DNA from: a virus
Strand: one strand, 5' to 3'
Length of the DNA: 47,437 nucleotides
Virus record (IMG/VR): IMGVR_UViG_3300018036_000017
Coordinates: 1 to 47,437 of that record
The notes below the pieces were generated by a model that worked only from the letters and a program-made list of their open reading frames with translations, searched no databases and was not told where the DNA came from. The translations under genes and the position numbers were made by a program. Numbering within the stretch: the first letter of the stretch is position 1; every line of letters begins with the position of its first letter. This document shows, one piece after another, positions 15,633 to 44,646 of this stretch.

Positions 15633-16697
15633 ATGATTAATTTCCTTGCTTCTCCAGAGCAATTCTCTGCTCAAGTCAAGCTTGCTTCTGTTGACAGGTC
15701 TTCTTTATATAAGATTGCAAACTATCAGTTAAGACAAGCAAACTCAATGCCTAAGGTCTCTAACTGGCTAACTAATGCTATATCTTCAGGTGTGATCTGG
15801 GTTAAAAACCTTTATCAGAAGACAGTCAATGCAATCCATGCTGTGACCAAAAAGTTCTTTTTATCTACACCTGTCATCTCGCACCTTACTAATTTCTTTA
15901 GAAAGGTAGCTTATAAGAGACTTTTAAGTGCAATGTATGATTCATGGCTGTTGGGTGTTAAAGACAAAATAAACAACAAAAAAAGAACAGCAAAGGCTGT
16001 GAGTGTTTATCTAAGCAATCGAATAAAAAAGAGCAAGATGTTCAATGGCAGGCACTTCCGAAGTGCCTATGTTAAATCTCAAGGCACTTTCTATATGGCA
16101 GATCCTTTCTATGAAGAATACTTAATGGGCTATGAGGGTAAAGATGAGAACAGTCTTGCTGCTAGAGCTAAGATGGTTACAGACAGAGATATTGGTACAA
16201 GAACTGTTTCTGAGGTAGCTAAAGCTGCCTTTGACTCTTTGAATATCTTTAATACTATGTTCCAGCTTATGCGAGATATGGTAGACAATGAGGCATATAC
16301 AGGCAAAAAGCTGCAAAGAGGAACAGGACAACAAGTTAAAATAACTAAAAGTAATTATACAAACGATGTTATAAGGAGAATTCTCCCTCAATCAATACTC
16401 TGGATTGTTGTGGTTGAGATGGGCTATGGAATGCTTCTTTTAAAAGGAATGATCCCTCTTGGTATTTTAGGGTTTTTCTATTACAGTGGCTCAGAAGCTT
16501 TCTTCCAAAAAGGCTATGTGGTTAGACATTTCTCTAAACTTTTCAAAGATAAGAAATACTTTGAGTCCAACTTTGAAGAAGTTCTAGGCAAAAAAGTCTT
16601 GAGGAAAGATGTGTTTGTTTCGAACTCTTTAGGTCAGCTTGTAAATCCATCTGAGGAAGAGCTAGAGGATATAAGAAAGGAACTAGATAATGATTAA
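15633..16697 (+). CDS. putative membrane protein, 354 aa, first of a tandem paralogous pair
   Basis: The ATG at 15633 follows AAAGGGTAAAG. It aligns with the next gene along most of its length. Shared features include MINFL at the start, LYxIANYQ near residue 30, TPxISHLT around residue 88, MYDSW near 110, a block PFYEEYLMGYEG around 160 and RDIGTRT-SEVA around 188. A hydrophobic segment at about residues 252-285 is probably one or two membrane helices. The tail is acidic. The family is unknown. Expression as a pair suggests the two proteins form a hetero-complex in the virion or the host membrane. Confidence 0.7.
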   Translation: MINFLASPEQFSAQVKLASVDRSSLYKIANYQLRQANSMPKVSNWLTNAISSGVIWVKNLYQKTVNAIHAVTKKFFLSTPVISHLTNFFRKVAYKRLLSAMYDSWLLGVKDKINNKKRTAKAVSVYLSNRIKKSKMFNGRHFRSAYVKSQGTFYMADPFYEEYLMGYEGKDENSLAARAKMVTDRDIGTRTVSEVAKAAFDSLNIFNTMFQLMRDMVDNEAYTGKKLQRGTGQQVKITKSNYTNDVIRRILPQSILWIVVVEMGYGMLLLKGMIPLGILGFFYYSGSEAFFQKGYVVRHFSKLFKDKKYFESNFEEVLGKKVLRKDVFVSNSLGQLVNPSEEELEDIRKELDND

Positions 16698-17658
16698 TTT
16701 TCTAGATGACCCTAGTGTTTTCAAGGCAAATCTAAGGTTTGCTTCGGAAGATAAAAGAACCCTTTATAGGATTGCTAACTATCAGTTCAAAGAAGCAACT
16801 ACTATAAAGGAAGCTAAAAACTTTATAACAAATCTTATAGACTCAGGTGTGGCTAAGATTGTCGGTGTTAGGACTTTCTTTGCTAACATTCTCCATAAGA
16901 TTACAAAGTTTATATTCATATACACACCTATCATTTCACACCTAACTAAGTTCTTTAGAGCGATTGCTTTTGAAAGACTCCTTGAGGGTATGTATGACTC
17001 TTGGAGAAGAGGTGCTTTAGATAGGAAGAATGAAAAACCTAAAAGAGATGAGGAACAGTTGCTTTCTTATCTTGCATGGAAAGTTAAGAATAAAAAGTTT
17101 GCAAAGCTCACAACTCAAGTTTCTGGCTCTTTCTACCAGACAGCTCCTTTCTATGAAGAATACTTAATGGGATATGAGGGTCAGCCTTCTTCAGAGTTAA
17201 AAGCTAGAGCTATTTCTGTTGCAAGAAGAGATATCGGTACAAGAACTATTTCTGAAGTAGCTAATGCAGCTTTGAATACTATTAACCCTGTTAAAGATGC
17301 TCTTATTGCAAAAAAATATTGGGGCAGTGAGTCAAAAGGCTTAGGTCCTTTTATATCTGCTGCTGTAAAGACTTTCATGATAGGAATGGTTTTCCCATCT
17401 TTAGCTACCTTCCTCTTTAAATATGGTTTGACACTTGGGGTCATTGGACTTTTCTACTACAATCCAAAAGAAGCATTCCTTAAGAGAGGGAAAGCTTGGG
17501 CTAGGTTTAAGAAAGTACTCTCTGGAACAACAGACATGTTTGTTGATAACCAAGACCTTGATGACTTTATCCCAGATAAGAATGTATTTGTAGAGGATGC
17601 TATGGGTGATTTGAAGGAACTTTCTAAGGTAAACCCTAGAACCTTTCAAAAAGATTAA
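16690..17658 (+). CDS. putative membrane protein, 322 aa, second paralogue
   Basis: It starts inside the end of the preceding paralogue (8-nt overlap) behind AAGGAA, so the two are translated together. It keeps the same blocks: MINFL, LYRIANYQ, the TPIISHLT segment, MYDSW, PFYEEYLMGYEG and RDIGTRTISEVA. A hydrophobic segment at about residues 230-265 matches that of its partner. The middle, between RDIGTRT and the hydrophobic segment, and the C-terminus have diverged most. It arose by tandem duplication. Confidence 0.7.
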   Translation: MINFLDDPSVFKANLRFASEDKRTLYRIANYQFKEATTIKEAKNFITNLIDSGVAKIVGVRTFFANILHKITKFIFIYTPIISHLTKFFRAIAFERLLEGMYDSWRRGALDRKNEKPKRDEEQLLSYLAWKVKNKKFAKLTTQVSGSFYQTAPFYEEYLMGYEGQPSSELKARAISVARRDIGTRTISEVANAALNTINPVKDALIAKKYWGSESKGLGPFISAAVKTFMIGMVFPSLATFLFKYGLTLGVIGLFYYNPKEAFLKRGKAWARFKKVLSGTTDMFVDNQDLDDFIPDKNVFVEDAMGDLKELSKVNPRTFQKD

Positions 17659-18357: not shown

Positions 18358-18395
18358 TTTTGTTTATCGAAGACCCTTTTCATATAGGGGGCTGT

Positions 18396-18899
18396 ATGAA
18401 AAAACAACTTATAAAGAGAATTGCAATGAAGCACATGGCTAAACAAAAACTAACATTTATGAAGCAGTATCAAAAAGACCCTCCATTTGGAGAGTTGGCT
18501 TCTGTTAGTCTCATGTCTGGTGATGGCAATCGTTTAGGGATTGTTGAAGGGTATCATAACATATACCCTGACATCACAAGGTTTGCTTGCTATGACGACA
18601 TAATGGTTCTTGTAAACAAGTACCCTCAAATGAAAAGCTCTAAAGGAATTCGTATTGTTGAAGTCGATAGAAGTAGGATAGAGCAAGAGCTTAAGGGTCA
18701 AGGGTATGGCACTAAGATGTATCTCATGTATGCAAAACTCCAATGGGATAGAAATGGTAGTAATCCTTTTATCTTCATTCCACAGGAATGTAATGATGAG
18801 GGTGGGAGCACTAGTGTAGATGCTAAAAGAGTGTGGAGTTCCCTCGCTAAAAACCACCCTTCCTCTGGTGACTGTATTGCTATCTTAAAAAGACCTTAA
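18396..18899 (+). CDS. GNAT-like acyltransferase-fold protein, 167 aa
   Basis: I place the start at ATG 18396, behind AGGGGG (18386-18391), rather than at the TTG within the terminator T-tract. The N-terminus is a basic amphipathic helix (KKQLIKRIAMKHMAKQK). The rest has mixed alpha/beta character. Q-G-Y-G-T-K-M-Y near residue 107 resembles the acetyl-CoA-binding QxxGxG/A loop of GNAT proteins, and the end reads A-x-R-V-W-x-S-L-A then P-S-S-G-D. The gene at 20602 is a paralogue sharing this C-terminal block. The substrate is unknown. Confidence 0.55.
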   Translation: MKKQLIKRIAMKHMAKQKLTFMKQYQKDPPFGELASVSLMSGDGNRLGIVEGYHNIYPDITRFACYDDIMVLVNKYPQMKSSKGIRIVEVDRSRIEQELKGQGYGTKMYLMYAKLQWDRNGSNPFIFIPQECNDEGGSTSVDAKRVWSSLAKNHPSSGDCIAILKRP

Positions 18900-20233: not shown

Positions 20234-20605
20234 ATGGCTCTCAACTTATATCATTACAAAGCAGAGGTACTTTCGGTCTATGACGGAGATACCATCACAG
20301 TCATGATTGACCAAGGCATGAAGCACTTTGCTAGAGTCAAAGTTCGCATGATTGGCATCAACACACCTGAAATAAGAACTAAAGACCTTGAAGAAAAAGA
20401 GAGAGGGTATGCTGCTAAGGACTACCTGAAATCTCGTATCGAGGGTAAGACCATTGTCATTAACACTGTTAAGAAAGGCAAATTTGGTCGCTGGTTAGGT
20501 GTTATATGGATTTACGAAGATGGTATGGAAGAACTAGGTGAGTCTTTAAATGATGAAATGATTCGTGTAGGCCATGCTGTATCATACGATGGGGGTAAAC
20601 GATGA
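20234..20605 (+). CDS. thermonuclease-like (SNase) nuclease, 123 aa
   Basis: Staphylococcal nuclease-type OB fold. Y-D-G-D-T (D17, D19) corresponds to the calcium-binding D21 region. R38-M-I-G-I-N43-T-P-E46 matches R35...D40-T-P-E43, with Asn in place of D40. G85-R86-W-L-G corresponds to the R87 region. The catalytic Arg and Glu are kept, so activity as a calcium-dependent phosphodiesterase is likely. No signal peptide is present, so it acts in the cytoplasm or from within the virion. It overlaps the next gene by ATGA and has a hairpin over its ribosome-binding site. Confidence 0.85.
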   Translation: MALNLYHYKAEVLSVYDGDTITVMIDQGMKHFARVKVRMIGINTPEIRTKDLEEKERGYAAKDYLKSRIEGKTIVINTVKKGKFGRWLGVIWIYEDGMEELGESLNDEMIRVGHAVSYDGGKR

Positions 20606-21108
20606 GATTAGCAAAGAAAGTAGCTCTCAGGTACGCTAAGAAAAACAGGTACACTATTGAAGAAACAGATTGGACAAGATATGACGCAACACATGGTTTT
20701 GATTTGATCCATAATGATGAAATAGTAGGCTCTATCGAGGGTGCTCTCCACTATATAGAGGTATCTGATTTCGATAACTTTGTATGCAAAGAGGACATGG
20801 AAATCTTATGGGAACTGTGGAGCGATTCTTTCCCTGCAAGCACATGGGAAAATGGTATTCCTGTTTTTGAGATAACAGAATCTAACCTAGATGAAGAGCA
20901 TCGAAATAAAAAATGTGGCATATTGATGTATAAAACCATTGCAAATAAAGTAAGAGAGGATGTTGGAATCCCTATCTTCTTTATTCCTAACTATTGTCAT
21001 ACTAGAACTACTTCAGATAAAGCTATTAGAGTCTGGAAGTCTCTAGCTAGAAAAAACCCCAGCAGTGGAGATGTTATATTTCTACATGAGCGTAGAATTA
21101 GAGGCTAA
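20602..21108 (+). CDS. GNAT-like protein, paralogue of the 18396 gene, 168 aa
   Basis: The start overlaps the nuclease stop (ATGA) behind GGGGG. The N-terminus MRLAKKVALRYAKK is a basic amphipathic helix similar in nature to that of the 18396 protein. The C-terminal half shares N-K-K-C-G-I-L-M-Y-K (GNAT CoA-loop position, with the glycine pattern degraded), a block of hydrophobic residues plus IPxxC/H, then I-R-V-W-K-S-L-A-x-K-N-P-S-S-G-D. The loss of loop glycines makes acetyl-CoA use less certain here than in the paralogue. Confidence 0.5.
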   Translation: MRLAKKVALRYAKKNRYTIEETDWTRYDATHGFDLIHNDEIVGSIEGALHYIEVSDFDNFVCKEDMEILWELWSDSFPASTWENGIPVFEITESNLDEEHRNKKCGILMYKTIANKVREDVGIPIFFIPNYCHTRTTSDKAIRVWKSLARKNPSSGDVIFLHERRIRG

Positions 21109-25683: not shown

Positions 25684-25737
25684 TATGTCTTTTATGTCCC
25701 ACAAGGAATGAATCTTTATCAGATAGGAAAACGTAAA

Positions 25738-26205
25738 ATGAGAAGAACAGCAGCACAACAAATCAGATCTCTTGAAATGAGAATCGCCAGGCTTGAAAAA
25801 GAAGCTGGACTATTTGACATTTTTGGAGATAAAATTAAAGAAACCCTTAAGGCAATAGCTAACGGAACAGGAGATGCTCTGGTAGACTATGGTCTTGCAA
25901 ACACCAAAGGTGATGATGGCTACATCAAAAAGCCCAATAAAATATACCAATTAGAGGCACGAGGTCATATCAAAAATGATAGACAACAACTTATGTTTAT
26001 TAATGTAGAGCTTGATAAGGAGCAAGACCTACTAAGGGTTTACTTAACAAGTATATACACCAGAGAACAATTTAATTTAGTGGTAGTGCCTAACTTCTCT
26101 TCTGAAAACCCTAAATTCATCATCCAGAACATTAAAACTATCGTCAAAAATAGCGTTAGAACACCTCGCCAGCGTCAAAAGATCATGGCTTTATATCAGT
26201 ACTAA
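25738..26205 (+). CDS. 155-aa protein with the shared N-terminal LExRIARLEKE module
   Basis: I choose ATG 25738, with AGGAAA (25725-25730) at 7 nt, over ATG 25708, whose purine stretch is too close. This start aligns the protein with three leftward genes at 42-44.6 kb: M-R-R-T-A-A-Q-Q-I-R-S-L-E-M-R-I-A-R-L-E and then K-E-A. The remainder is a small alpha/beta body unrelated by eye to those partners. The last 4 nt overlap the convergent pentapeptide gene. Confidence 0.65.
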   Translation: MRRTAAQQIRSLEMRIARLEKEAGLFDIFGDKIKETLKAIANGTGDALVDYGLANTKGDDGYIKKPNKIYQLEARGHIKNDRQQLMFINVELDKEQDLLRVYLTSIYTREQFNLVVVPNFSSENPKFIIQNIKTIVKNSVRTPRQRQKIMALYQY

Positions 26206-36483: not shown

Positions 36484-36906
36484 ATGACTTATAGAAGAGA
36501 TGGCATTATATTCAGCAGATTTTTTGATCCTACATGGGGTGAGGTTCGGATTGCTAGAATTATACCCACAGAAAACAACTGGGGGGCATACTATGAAATC
36601 TCGGAGCTTGAAATGTCCTCATTGATTCCAGAAATCGAAATAGAGACAATAGACAGAGCCTCTAGGGGTGATTGTACTCCTTTGTTAAACTCTGGGCTTA
36701 GAGAGCCAAATGGGTGCTTAAAAATGCTAAAAGTACCTAAAGATTGTGATGAGCAAAACGTCTGCCTCTCATTCGATAAGAAAAAGTGTCAAATGGGAAA
36801 TAGAAAGATGCCTGATTGCTTCTCCCCAATAACAAACCCATTACTCAGACCTTTAGTCATTGCTTGGCTAGAAGGTTACCACATCATAAGAGAGGTGACT
36901 GTATGA
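36484..36906 (+). CDS. hypothetical Cys-containing protein, 140 aa
   Basis: AAGGGGG precedes the ATG. The protein contains five Cys (about residues 64, 78, 88, 93 and 102) plus C112 between them and a hydrophobic C-terminal helix, so a metal site is possible. No family is recognised. It overlaps the ClpP-like gene by ATGA, so the two are made together; it could be a partner or inhibitor of the protease, but that is inference from position. Confidence 0.6.
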   Translation: MTYRRDGIIFSRFFDPTWGEVRIARIIPTENNWGAYYEISELEMSSLIPEIEIETIDRASRGDCTPLLNSGLREPNGCLKMLKVPKDCDEQNVCLSFDKKKCQMGNRKMPDCFSPITNPLLRPLVIAWLEGYHIIREVTV

Positions 36907-37547
36907 ATAAGTATCTAAACAGACCAACAAACCGCAGAGTTTATGAAAACTCAGAGGGACAAGTATATGCAGGTTCTCAAGAGGGTAATTACCAAGGTGA
37001 CATCACTATCTCTGATAACCACATTTACCTCTATGCAGACATCACCCCAAAGTCTGTAATGGAAGTTGGGATTGCTATCAGGAGTGTAGGTCAACAGATT
37101 GTTAATCTTATGACTGACCTAAGCCTACCCTCTATCCCACCTATCCACTTACACATAAACTCTGGTGGTGGGTGTGCATTCTCAGGACTTGCTGGTGCTA
37201 GTCATATCCTAGAATCAGAAGTTCCTGTCTTCACTTATGTAGAAGGATCTGCTGCGAGTGCTGCAACTATCATGTCTTGTGTTGGTGCTCAAAGACACAT
37301 CACAGAACACAGCTTTATGCTTATTCACCAAGTAAGTACAGGTGTCTGGGGTACTTATGGGAATCTTGTAGATGAGAAAGAATCTATGGACTCACTCATG
37401 GAAATGTTAGAGTCTATCTACTTGAAGCACACCAAGCTCAAAAAGAAAAAGCTCAAAGAACTTCTTAAAAGGGATCTGTGGATGAACCCAGAGAAGTGCC
37501 TTGAGCTTGGCCTTGTAGATGAAATTATAAAGTATGAGAGAACTTAA
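36903..37547 (+). CDS. ClpP-like serine protease, 214 aa
   Basis: I choose ATG 36903 (ATGA overlap, AGAGGTG in front), which gives a ClpP-sized protein. The oxyanion segment I-N-S-G-G-G is at 85-90. Ser119 lies in G-S-A-A-S-A-A, His142 in M-L-I-H-Q and Asp191 in R-D-L-W-M. The Ser-His-Asp spacing of 23 and 49 is close to the E. coli enzyme. It ends with L-G-L-V-D-E-I-I, typical of the family. Phage ClpP-type proteases commonly serve in capsid maturation or as host-like proteolysis components. No portal or capsid gene lies nearby, and a prohead role is therefore open. Confidence 0.85.
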   Translation: MNKYLNRPTNRRVYENSEGQVYAGSQEGNYQGDITISDNHIYLYADITPKSVMEVGIAIRSVGQQIVNLMTDLSLPSIPPIHLHINSGGGCAFSGLAGASHILESEVPVFTYVEGSAASAATIMSCVGAQRHITEHSFMLIHQVSTGVWGTYGNLVDEKESMDSLMEMLESIYLKHTKLKKKKLKELLKRDLWMNPEKCLELGLVDEIIKYERT

Positions 37548-41612: not shown

Positions 41613-42239
41613 TTATTTTTTGAGGTGTCTACTAGCCACTCTTATACTAGCTTGTTGGTCTGCTAACCTAAACCACTTTCTAAGCTTATTTTTAACTTTA
41701 GGTAGGAACTCTTGAGCCCTCTCTAAGTCTCTTTTTAACTCGCTCATTTCTTCAGTGACATCTTTAAATACTGGTTTGAGTCTTGTTATCTTCTTAGTGA
41801 GTCTTTCAAGACTTAATCTAACCAAAGGATCACTGTCGCTTTCGTATGATTTAGCAACAAGCTCTCTTACATCTTTGATGTCCTCAAGAACTTCATCTCT
41901 ATCTCGCTCTCTTTTTTTAATAAGTTCAGGGAGATATTCTTTGATCATCAAAACCTTATTTGTTTTGTAAATAAGGTCATGCCATCCAAAGTTAAGTTGA
42001 TCAATCCCAAAGCTACCTGGAGTAGATATTCTATTAAGCTCTATATTAGCCCAAGACTGTGCTTTTTGAAGATCTGCTTTATGGAAAGAATCAACCTCTT
42101 TAAGGATGTCTTTAAGATCTTCAATTGAATAGAAGTTCCAACTGTACTTAGGGTTGTTCATAGCACTCCCTAAGACTTGGTATTTACTTTCAATTCGATC
42201 AAGATCTTCTCTGATATTCTTTATGTCTCTCTGGTTCAT
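41613..42239 (-). CDS. 208-aa helical protein ending in a basic RVASRHLKK tail
   Basis: I choose ATG 42239, one base beyond the preceding stop, with GGAG about 7 nt upstream, rather than the upstream in-frame TTG. The protein is almost wholly helical and charged, with coiled-coil segments (about 85-190). It ends in A-S-I-R-V-A-S-R-H-L-K-K, a basic amphipathic motif similar to the N-termini of the 18396 and 20602 proteins but at the opposite end. The function is unknown. It is the last gene of the leftward 41.6-44.6 kb block. Confidence 0.6.
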   Translation of the reverse strand: MNQRDIKNIREDLDRIESKYQVLGSAMNNPKYSWNFYSIEDLKDILKEVDSFHKADLQKAQSWANIELNRISTPGSFGIDQLNFGWHDLIYKTNKVLMIKEYLPELIKKRERDRDEVLEDIKDVRELVAKSYESDSDPLVRLSLERLTKKITRLKPVFKDVTEEMSELKRDLERAQEFLPKVKNKLRKWFRLADQQASIRVASRHLKK

Positions 42240-42240
42240 A

Positions 42241-43119
42241 TTAGACTCCAGCACCCTCAAGTCTTAATAACATAGAATATGTGTGTGGGTATTTACTTGC
42301 ATACTTATTCACAGATGCTTGTTTGCCAATTATTTCATTGAACTTATCAATGTTTACTTTTCTTCTTCTGAAAGCACCCTCAATCATCTTAAGAATCATG
42401 TCTACAACTTTTGGTAGTGTCATTAACCCAATTTGGTTCATAGCTACAGTACTACCAACAACTAGGCCGAGAGGTCCACAAAGGCAAACTATTAAAGATG
42501 CTACTAAAGTAGGGATCAGGGTTAGGGTTCTTATTTTTGTTCCAAATTTAACTAGTGCAGAAAGCAATCTCCCAAGGAACTTAAACTTCCTAGAGAAAAA
42601 ATCAATTACGCTCTGAACCATACTTTTTGATGGAGATTTGCCATTGATTACAATATCCAGAGAATCACCCCAATCTTTCCACCATGAAACATATGCTCCC
42701 ATAATGTCTTTTTGGGTTTTACTGTCAATCTCTCTAATTTTCTGTACAGAACTCAGAGTGAAATCAAGAAACCTGGGTTCTCCATTTACAGAATAGGAGA
42801 CTTTCAAAACAGAGTTTACTGGGTTTTTAGCATCAAATTTTTCAACACTTATTGATGTGGTTTTCCCAAAAAACATATTTCTTTGGAGAGCTTCGGTCAG
42901 TCTCGCCTGTAAGTTCATTTCAGCAGCAGAAGCAAAAGTATCTCTATTACTTATAATTGACCCCTTGAAAGTGGACACAAGGTCTTGAGCTGCTGCAATT
43001 AGAGGTTTAAACCAGTTCATTCCCAGATTCTTAATCATTTGAATGATTGCTTGCTTTTCAAGTTGAGCCACTCTGTTCTCAAGAATAGCGATTTTTTGTG
43101 ATGCTGTTAGTTGTCTCAT
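42241..43119 (-). CDS. 292-aa protein with shared N-terminal module; membrane-like segment
   Basis: The first 24 residues are identical to those of the next upstream gene in the block (43172-43801). After that it matches the 43798 gene: F-D-x-x-N-P-x-N-S around residue 105, the D-I-x-G-A-Y-x-S-W-W-K-D block near 140, and R-R-R-K-V-N-x-D near 255. A hydrophobic segment at about 200-240 (TLIPTLVASLIVCLCGPLGL) is probably membrane-spanning. It has a TATAGT box 38-43 nt upstream. The protein may be a virion or membrane component carrying a targeting peptide. Confidence 0.6.
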   Translation of the reverse strand: MRQLTASQKIAILENRVAQLEKQAIIQMIKNLGMNWFKPLIAAAQDLVSTFKGSIISNRDTFASAAEMNLQARLTEALQRNMFFGKTTSISVEKFDAKNPVNSVLKVSYSVNGEPRFLDFTLSSVQKIREIDSKTQKDIMGAYVSWWKDWGDSLDIVINGKSPSKSMVQSVIDFFSRKFKFLGRLLSALVKFGTKIRTLTLIPTLVASLIVCLCGPLGLVVGSTVAMNQIGLMTLPKVVDMILKMIEGAFRRRKVNIDKFNEIIGKQASVNKYASKYPHTYSMLLRLEGAGV

Positions 43120-43156
43120 GGTTTATTCTTTCTTCGATTTGTCTAAAGTGGTGTGG

Positions 43157-43162
43157 ACTATA
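43157..43162 (-). promoter_or_regulatory. TATAGT promoter-like box
   Basis: On the minus strand GTTTTATAGT lies 38-43 nt before ATG 43119, in the 52-nt gap after the 43172 gene. It is another member of the recurring TATA-box set. Confidence 0.3.
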
Positions 43163-43171
43163 AAACAGTTA

Positions 43172-43801
43172 TTAAAAAAACGCAAAAGGGTTCATTGCTT
43201 TCAGCCCTTCTTTGATCCCAGAAAGTAGTATGTGTAATCCCATAGTAGGTGCTAAGATCAAGTAGAGGCAAGCACGTTTAAGTTTCCTGAATACATTGTC
43301 TGATTTCTCGAGATCTTCAGCTATCAGTTCAAGGAGATAGTCAAATAAAAGCTCAACAACGAAATCACAAATAAAAAAGGCTATGATACTACCAAAATAG
43401 AGAGCAAAGTCAGGCAGACTGTTGAGCTGAACTAGCTTCCTTGCATTCTTTGTTCTTTCTTGAGACTCAAGATCTATCCCATATACACTTTTCAAATAGA
43501 TTGCATTTTCTTTATTATTGTAAATGTCTAATAGCTTTAAAATAGAGGTTTGAGGATTAGAAGACCTCACAGCTTTCTTTAACTCTTTAAGTTCCTTTGG
43601 ATTCGCTTTTGCTAAGGCTTCAAACTTCCCCACTGTCATTTTAGAGTCTTTGGCCACATGTTGAGCTACCTTAAGGGGCTTGAATCGGGACAACTTGCTT
43701 TTTATCTTAGCTAAGATGCTTTCAAGCATTGCTTGTTTTTCAAGTTGAGCTACTCTGTTCTCAAGGATAGCGATTTTCTGTGATGCTGTTAGTTGCCTCA
43801 C
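43172..43801 (-). CDS. 209-aa protein with shared N-terminal module; hydrophobic C-terminus
   Basis: I choose GTG 43801, which overlaps the previous stop as GTGA behind AAAGGG, because it makes the N-terminus align exactly with the 43119 gene for 24 residues. The body is different: a basic helix to about residue 50, a helical middle, and hydrophobic segments near 135-165 and 180-200. The likely location is membrane or virion. Only the tag is shared with the next gene, so the tag appears to be a separate module placed in front of unrelated bodies. Confidence 0.6.
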   Translation of the reverse strand: MRQLTASQKIAILENRVAQLEKQAMLESILAKIKSKLSRFKPLKVAQHVAKDSKMTVGKFEALAKANPKELKELKKAVRSSNPQTSILKLLDIYNNKENAIYLKSVYGIDLESQERTKNARKLVQLNSLPDFALYFGSIIAFFICDFVVELLFDYLLELIAEDLEKSDNVFRKLKRACLYLILAPTMGLHILLSGIKEGLKAMNPFAFF

Positions 43802-44646
43802 TTGCAAACCCTTTCGTAATGAGAGACTAAGCTATTACAATATGGGTAAGGGTGAGAAGATGCTTTTTTAGCTGCAAGCTCATCAAAGAGATCCATATTT
43901 ACTTTTCTTCTGCGAAGAACCTTTTCAAATATGTTTAAGATCATCTTACCAACACCTAGATAAGTGAGGGTCTTCCCTCTTTCTGGTGCAACTTCTGCCA
44001 AAGGCATTAGGGTTGTAAACATCACAACTAAAGAGAACACTTCATAAGCCCATTTAAAGCTGTAGACAACTCTCAAGAACCTGTAAAGAAACTTACTTGC
44101 ACCTTTGATTCTGTTCCAGAAAGATTTCAAATCCGTAGACCTACTCATCCTTCCTTCACGAAGCATTTTTAGTTCTTCTTCAAAGTCTTTCCACCATGAA
44201 ATATATGCACCTTTAATATCTTTATCTATGCTAGGGGGTAGACCCTCAACATCTTTAAGCATTGATGGCATATCTCGGATAGTAGCTTCATAAGATTTTA
44301 ACTCACCACCTACTTCTTTAACCATAAGCTGGGCTTCAGAGTTCATAGGATTGTTTGGGTCAAAATTAGTGATATAAAACCTAATAGGGTATCCAGACAT
44401 AAGAGATTTATCTAATGCACTGCTGACTCTAACTTCTAAGAACTTAACTAAGCCCTCTAAGATACTTTCCTTATTCTTTTTTAAGGTAAGCTTTAAAAGA
44501 GAAGAAATTTCTCCAAAGGAGTCTTGAATCTTAGAGAGTAGGTTTATAGGGATAGACTTCAACCAATCAAGAATCTTGGACTCCTTCTCTAACCTTGCTA
44601 TCCTAATTTCAAGCTTTCTAATTTCTTGTGTTGATATTTTATTCAT
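43798..44646 (-). CDS. 282-aa protein, paralogue of the 42241 gene
   Basis: The start has AGAGG 7 nt upstream. The N-terminus M-N-K-I-S-T-Q-E-I-R-K-L-E-I-R-I-A-R-L-E (then K-E-S) is a diverged copy of the shared module. The body follows the 42241 protein: N-F-D-P-N-N-P-M-N-S, D-I-K-G-A-Y-I-S-W-W-K-D, a hydrophobic stretch near 200-225 and R-R-R-K-V-N-M-D. Bodies and tags have diverged to different extents, as expected if tags were exchanged or conserved separately. It is divergent from the 44691 gene across 44 nt. Confidence 0.6.
   Translation of the reverse strand: MNKISTQEIRKLEIRIARLEKESKILDWLKSIPINLLSKIQDSFGEISSLLKLTLKKNKESILEGLVKFLEVRVSSALDKSLMSGYPIRFYITNFDPNNPMNSEAQLMVKEVGGELKSYEATIRDMPSMLKDVEGLPPSIDKDIKGAYISWWKDFEEELKMLREGRMSRSTDLKSFWNRIKGASKFLYRFLRVVYSFKWAYEVFSLVVMFTTLMPLAEVAPERGKTLTYLGVGKMILNIFEKVLRRRKVNMDLFDELAAKKASSHPYPYCNSLVSHYERVCK

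Follow-up and report, generated by a model that had tools for sequence, protein, structure and literature searches.

Why do two neighboring genes of a phage begin with the same peptide when the rest of the two proteins is unrelated? We analyzed a stretch of 47,437 nucleotides (the window; IMG/VR virus record IMGVR_UViG_3300018036_000017) in which genes A and B pose this question (Table 1). Direct comparison bore out what a preliminary description had claimed for them. Codons 2-24 of both genes encode the same 23 residues, and the DNA differs at five positions, all of them synonymous third-base transitions (AGA/AGG, CAA/CAG, ATT/ATC, GTG/GTA, AAG/AAA). The start codons differ as well (ATG vs GTG). 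Peptide identity stops at codon 25, and with the tag removed the best blastp match between the two bodies has an E value of 5.6. A duplication of the whole gene was rejected as the bodies are unrelated. A 64/69-base match is expected by chance about 7e-22 times in the window, and the probability that five random transitions in this tag would all be synonymous is 0.005. An in-frame TTG is found at 43807, ahead of the GTG from which gene B is counted.

The description of two adjacent tagged genes was right as far as it went but incomplete: gene C, beside B, and a gene on the opposite strand also have diverged copies. The body of gene C is homologous to that of gene A (28.6% over 224 aa, E 6e-24, blastp). 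No relative of the gene B body was detected among the tagged proteins by blastp body clustering. Genes A, B, and C are on the same strand as a DNA polymerase gene and immediately upstream of it. Related-locus searches with gene A and with the paralog at 155740 returned only contigs with 100% matches; those with gene B returned two such contigs and one 42% relative. Gene A had no match in the PDB at E 0.001. In its predicted model (pLDDT 68) the tag lies within a helix at residues 6-57, with pLDDT below 50 at 28-35, and the family of gene A has a hydrophobic stretch by eye. A tRNA search of the window found none.

Table 1. Tagged genes of the window and head genes of the 312-kb contig G001 that contains it
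Feature	Sequence	Position	Strand	Remarks
Gene A	window	42241..43119	-	292 aa; ATG start at 43119; in a 15-protein paralog family
Tag of gene A	window	43048..43119	-	codons 1-24
Gene B	window	43172..43801	-	209 aa counted from GTG at 43801
Tag of gene B	window	43730..43801	-	codons 1-24
Gene C	window	43798..44646	-	282 aa; paralog of A; adjoins B
Diverged tag of gene C	window	44578..44646	-	codons 1-23; MNKISTQEIRKLEIRIARLEKES
Fourth tagged gene	window	25708..26205	+	165 aa from first ATG
Diverged tag of fourth gene	window	25738..25806	+	23 codons; own Met at 25738; MRRTAAQQIRSLEMRIARLEKEA
Head maturation protease	G001	176592-178133		phrog_18299, E 1.6e-16
Acidic scaffold-like protein	G001	178152-179819		coil-like stretches; between protease and MCP
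MCP	G001	180564-181442		phrog_2522, E 8.5e-51

The preliminary description had proposed searching the rest of this genome and related phages for the start of the peptide. The window corresponds, at 99.98-100% identity and on the reverse strand, to positions 87,229-134,665 of an IMG/VR contig of 312,136 bases, which we named G001. About 28 copies are present in this phage contig, and related huge-phage contigs hold up to 32. Searching G001 with a profile made from the four window copies gave 29 matches at E 10, of which 26 reached 1e-3 or better; a 40-row profile, one row of which was composed by hand, found 28 copies at E 0.01. The latter counted 32 copies in a contig of 376 kb, 20 in one of 297 kb, and 11-15 in each of several more. 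These contigs were picked by the core pattern, so that all 25 being positive is by construction. Five of them (G012, G013, G015, G016, and G026) have only weak matches and represent a second tag group. Fourteen of the 25 were read as sequence (G004 to 153 kb only) and the others were searched with the profile only. Gene calls were made by a crude longest-ORF method. In a wider survey, a degenerate DNA pattern for LExRIARLEK matched 112 IMG/VR stretches. The 80 examined, some of which are the same virus or near-duplicates, have 85 core matches. Of these, 72 have a Met no more than 15 residues before the core and 48 an S-A-S-like triplet, a feature that was no part of the search pattern.

A sample chosen independently of the tag gives a better prevalence figure. 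Ten of 15 contigs selected for a near-identical MCP have profile matches, one of the ten with a single weak match, while the profile found no tag in the other five. The 15 were taken from 80 listed contigs, and 517 stretches encode an MCP relative. There are 17 copies in a 290-kb contig of this sample, eight in a 316-kb contig, and one weak copy in a 196-kb contig. The profile found no tag in T4, phiKZ, G, Atu_ph07, RaK2, LR745208, LR745206, LR756502, LR756504, or a tenth phage record, Tunturi_5. A tblastn search of the phage collection with short tags also gave no match, a weak result because of the short queries and the low-complexity filter. The MCP is 97-99% identical among G001, G003, G005, and G010, and the nearest MCPs in the phage collection are those of LR745208 (89%, uncultured), Tunturi_5 (47%), and G (38%). 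An MCP search of genome contigs gave two loci, both in MAGs. Judged by their head genes, the tag carriers are one group of uncultured huge tailed phages. In contigs of 227-376 kb whose MCPs (G001 180564-181442 and relatives) are 97-99% identical, the DnaB-like helicases are only about 72% identical. We found no earlier description of the tag in the open-licence PMC literature, judged by title and the start of the abstract, and in the portion of PMC11924767 (Tunturi_5) at hand the terms 'mass spectrometry' and 'N-terminal' do not occur.

The tag consensus is M-[RK]-R-[ST]-A-S-E-[IV]-I-x-x-L-E-x-R-[IV]-A-x-L-E-[KR]-[QE]-[AST], with a net charge of +3. It was derived from single representatives of the 103 body clusters, of which 98 could be anchored and five could not, and its core positions are partly fixed by the patterns used in the search. 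Residues A5, I9, L12, I16, L19, and A23 are spaced 4-3-4-3-4, as heptad positions d-a-d-a-d-a. The tag is predicted to form a short amphipathic helix, basic in charge and three heptads long. Conservation extends beyond the coil core to R2-R3, the S-A-S-E before the core, and A17. The best sequence match in the PDB is the GCN4 variant 2o7h (E 0.002 over 11 positions), which we take to be a trimer; it has LENRVARLEK where gene A has LENRVAQLEK. With R15 at heptad g and E20 at heptad e, positions partly fixed by the pattern, the tag has the R(g)-h(a)-x-x-h(d)-E(e) arrangement of a parallel trimeric coiled coil, the R-h-x-x-h-E trimer motif as defined in the available excerpt of PMC3653964. The tag resembles engineered trimeric GCN4 in both respects. 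Unlike it, the tag is natural, about three heptads long, flanked by fixed residues, and found on many proteins. We rejected a Pfam or PHROG family for the tag, the matches, to coiled-coil families among others, being weak (best E 0.006). Position +3 beyond the core is A, S, or T in 87% of 98 tags, and no common processing motif was found. A proteome-wide [KR]-[ST]-A-S processing site in G001 was considered and rejected, as enrichment of this sequence is confined to the C-termini of tagged proteins.

The proteins that carry the tag are diverse. Clustering at blastp E 1e-3 sorted the 151 tagged ORFs (E < 0.01) of 11 contigs into 103 body clusters, and 84 of these are singletons. The largest cluster, with 15 proteins, is the A/C family; of its 12 invariant columns, seven belong to the tag and two to an A-S pair close to the C-terminus. 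Only about six of the 103 representatives have a Pfam match at E 1e-3. The carriers include a JmjC/Cupin_8 protein (2.8e-22), pentapeptide proteins, a WGR protein, and a HAD-like protein. The representatives match 18 PHROGs, two of them described (polynucleotide kinase and polymerase). No head or tail part is among the 18 descriptions, most being undescribed, and this is what cargo would predict. The tag is N-terminal in 137 of the 151 ORFs, internal in 11, and C-terminal in three. A tag was counted as internal if the open frame extended more than 60 codons ahead of it; translation may begin inside that frame, which makes 11 an upper limit. One of the three C-terminal cases is a 44-codon frame and probably a fragment; another, in G011, has an HExxH motif by eye. 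The WGR protein has about 300 aa, the tag, and then about 270 aa, an arrangement kept in three contigs.

The preliminary description took the peptide for a selected module rather than the trace of a whole-gene duplication. With the A and B bodies unrelated and the module on 103 body clusters, this is supported. Its suggested dN/dS comparison, run here as pN/pS, agreed only in part. Among four within-genome pairs with homologous bodies, three have pN/pS values of 0.04-0.13 in the tag and 0.48-0.60 in the bodies (0.06 vs 0.48 for 154632/155740, 0.04 vs 0.60 for 151847/152951, and 0.13 vs 0.55 for a G003 pair). The fourth, G005_145300/145940, shows no contrast (0.63 vs 0.68). The A/B tag has a pN/pS of 0. 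In six comparisons between phages the tag gives 0.15-0.45 and the body 0.18-0.53, with the tag lower in only two. Within a phage, then, the tag is plainly constrained, while between phages its drift is comparable to that of the bodies. The gene B body had appeared related to that of the gene at 228613 in G001 (40% over 104 aa with the tag). We rejected this relation, as it vanishes without the tag (E 0.76), and for that reason the body figures of this pair are left out of the pN/pS comparison.

Tags on unrelated bodies are more alike within genomes (0.610, 1085 pairs) than between them (0.546, 8771 pairs); in this comparison of 142 tags none of 1000 label shuffles reached the within-genome value. 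This likeness would be expected if each phage has its own partner for the tag or copies tags inside its genome. At the DNA level the A and B tags differ at five codons where 13.5 are expected (P 5e-5), and a pair of unrelated genes in G003 has 15 of 15 tag codons in common, with 6.1 expected. The likeness of the A and B tags thus reflects recent copying as well. Between genomes, too, codons agree more often than expected (0.456 vs 0.324), so the P value of 5e-5 overstates how recent the copying was.

We also examined the DNA upstream of tagged genes. A block, TAGTTTnTTTAT, derived from tagged genes and afterwards scored on all genes, occurs 20-110 bases upstream of 19/29 tagged and 40/466 untagged genes in G005 (p 1e-12). 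The corresponding counts are 8/10 and 21/277 in G010 (p 2e-7), 3/17 and 16/349 in G003 (p 0.05), and 4/25 and 22/309 in G001, the phage of the window (p 0.12). A control stretch farther upstream was flat. Before the head operon (173365) the block scores 10, 11, 7, and 10 of 11 in G001, G005, G010, and G003, thus heading this operon in three of the four genomes. It scores 11 in all four before the conserved gene 71798 and 9, 11, 11, and 10 before the conserved gene 260176. Neither gene has a PHROG family; their neighbors are baseplate-like and terminase genes. Replication and nucleotide genes score no more than 8 in 24 of 24 cases, and a MetRS-like gene in G001 scores 10 (the names DnaB, RecD, DnaX, PurA, MetRS, TK, and dNK were assigned by eye). 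The block is absent from most capsid and large tail genes tested, MCP and terminase included. From these few genes we read it as a putative virion-type promoter. Promoter-bearing tagged starts in G005 have a leader element in 14 of 18 cases, compared with two of 38 among untagged ones.

The head genes of G001 are in the order head protease, acidic scaffold-like protein, small protein, MCP. Their Tunturi_5 counterparts are in the same order: protease gp331, gp332 (also acidic), gp333, and MCP gp334. Two coil-like stretches of the scaffold-like protein are kept among G001, G003, and G005, and G007 has a relative. None was found in G004 (half read), G008, G010, or G011. The window also codes for a ClpP-like protease (36816..37547, + strand) that matches a PHROG of head maturation proteases (2.5e-39). 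The model for this protease matches 12 of 14 control genomes too, and the protease beside the MCP is a separate one.

Several known systems are comparable. In T4, internal proteins enter the prohead core by means of a CTS of 10-20 residues that is cleaved later, and the identical N-termini of SPN3US gp53 and gp54 have been likened to it, according to the parts of PMC5694885 consulted. As with the CTS of T4 internal proteins and Alt, a short N-terminal peptide is found here on different bodies (103 clusters, 137 of 151 ORFs N-terminal), and a tagged phage encodes a head protease and a scaffold-like protein. Unlike the CTS, the tag consists of 20-odd residues in perfect heptads, has up to 32 carriers, and is sometimes internal or C-terminal; the two are unrelated in sequence, the tag profile giving no match in T4. 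The case of gp53 and gp54 is similar in that near-identical N-termini stand on diverged giant-phage proteins, but these two are paralogs and most giant-phage propeptides have 111-254 residues, as the accessible text of PMC10052503 states, while the tag is short and its bodies are unrelated. We do not class the tag as a CTS, given the lack of sequence kinship, the other placements, and no established cleavage site. Microcompartment encapsulation peptides and encapsulin cargo peptides are short, terminal, often helical addresses on unrelated cargo, and no sequence relation to them is claimed. Unlike in microcompartment encapsulation, the shell BMC domain PF00936 was found in none of the four phages searched (2/14 control genomes have it), and a microcompartment was rejected as the partner. 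A phiKZ-type nucleus was also rejected: phiKZ gp054 was found in phiKZ itself and in none of the four phages, in a single-sequence search that a distant relative could escape.

Our preferred reading, in which we place about half of our confidence, is that the tag is a portable docking helix, most probably a prohead cargo tag that acts like the T4 CTS. It would bind a common partner, for which the acidic coiled-coil scaffold-like protein between head protease and MCP is the likeliest candidate. Binding would load some 10-30 accessory proteins into the prohead, as the CTS does in T4. Another gene would join the cargo when a tag-bearing stretch of DNA, accompanied in some phages by its 5' leader, is copied in front of it. 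The adjacent genes for head protease, scaffold-like protein, and MCP are hints in this direction, as is the promoter block. Counting against a cargo role, the tag is no more conserved than the bodies between phages, and the promoter link is weak or absent in G001 and G003, with the block missing from most capsid and tail genes as well. Similarly, LR745208, with a near-identical MCP (89%), has no tag, nor do five of the 15 MCP-selected contigs, and G010 has the MCP and 13 tags but no scaffold-like relative that we could find. Nor is late expression suggested by where A, B, and C lie, immediately upstream of the gene for DNA polymerase. More tentatively, and with the chances somewhat against it, the phages may have an open cargo system in which one interchangeable coiled-coil address, at either end of a protein, brings dozens of unrelated proteins onto the prohead core. 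It is similarly doubtful, though conceivable, that the cargo of such a system would be enzymes and membrane-type proteins and that a tag-bearing DNA segment in front would suffice to make a gene payload.

Four other explanations were weighed against prohead cargo. The tag might only oligomerize each carrier as a parallel trimer, without a shared receptor. The R-h-x-x-h-E motif and the GCN4-like best PDB match favor this, but residues outside the coil core (R2-R3, S-A-S-E, and A17) are conserved too, and dozens of near-identical coils in one cell would mix, although chains might sort by their bodies. We consider simple oligomerization unlikely. Decidedly unlikely in our view is an address elsewhere in the infected cell, be it the inner membrane, the replication site, or a phage compartment. 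Such a destination would suit the location of A, B, and C beside the DNA polymerase gene, the hydrophobic stretch of the A/C family, and an enzyme-like carrier such as the JmjC/Cupin_8 protein. Against it, sequence searches that picked up phiKZ itself detected in the four phages neither a nuclear shell protein nor an RNA polymerase subunit related to those of phiKZ. A microcompartment shell domain was likewise not found in the four, though distant relatives could escape searches by sequence alone.

The two remaining alternatives would deny the peptide a role. If the tag were an expression cassette (leader, ribosome site, and favorable first codons) with the peptide hitchhiking, the leader that accompanies it in G005 would be explained. 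However, it is the protein that is conserved, with synonymous changes in its DNA, the heptads run over 23 residues, some copies are internal or C-terminal, and no leader common to A and B is visible by eye, making a cassette very improbable. Simple common descent of the genes with a functionless module, which the paralogy of A and C and the A/B codons, closer than independent descent predicts, would favor, is already contradicted by the unrelated A and B bodies. With 84 of 103 body clusters singletons as well, we find it scarcely credible.

What huge-phage heads contain is largely unknown, as most such phages are uncultured. Should the tag prove to direct proteins into the head, sequence alone would reveal which accessory cargo a tagged phage carries, with about 28 candidates in the G001 phage, the majority lacking a known domain. 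A natural and compact tag would then be available for the loading of proteins into phage shells, and the shuffling of N-termini among phage genes would have a clear example.

Other terminal motifs are found in these phages. A related N-terminal tag, M-x-K-x-LExRIxRLEKLL, is present in other phages (L265-L283; G012, G015, and G026). It is followed by N-E within about 20 residues in 15 of 17 N-terminal ORFs (by eye), which gives it the look of a propeptide with cleavage at a Glu. A second terminal motif, approximately R-V-A-x-R-[YH]-[LM], is at N- or C-termini in the window (41613..42260, - strand; 20602..21108 and 18360..18899, + strand) and also in G001, G003, G005, and G010, with a few false matches. 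It occurs 3.1-6.4 times per 10,000 residues in the first 35 residues and 0.3-0.9 times in mid-protein. The gene beside A terminates in a motif of this type, QASIRVASRHLKK. Adjacent paralogs in the window (15633..16697 and 16690..17658, + strand) have in common an N-terminus ending in LYxIANYQ, unlike the tag. About ten small ORFs in G001 (at about 141.5-144.8, 161, 209, and 224.9-225.8 kb) have an N-terminal motif like T-E-I-V-N-G-K-R, and three ORFs at 301.1-304.7 kb of the same contig start with a stretch like MIITILRKPLEGSVADNVLKHGCGALNIDA.
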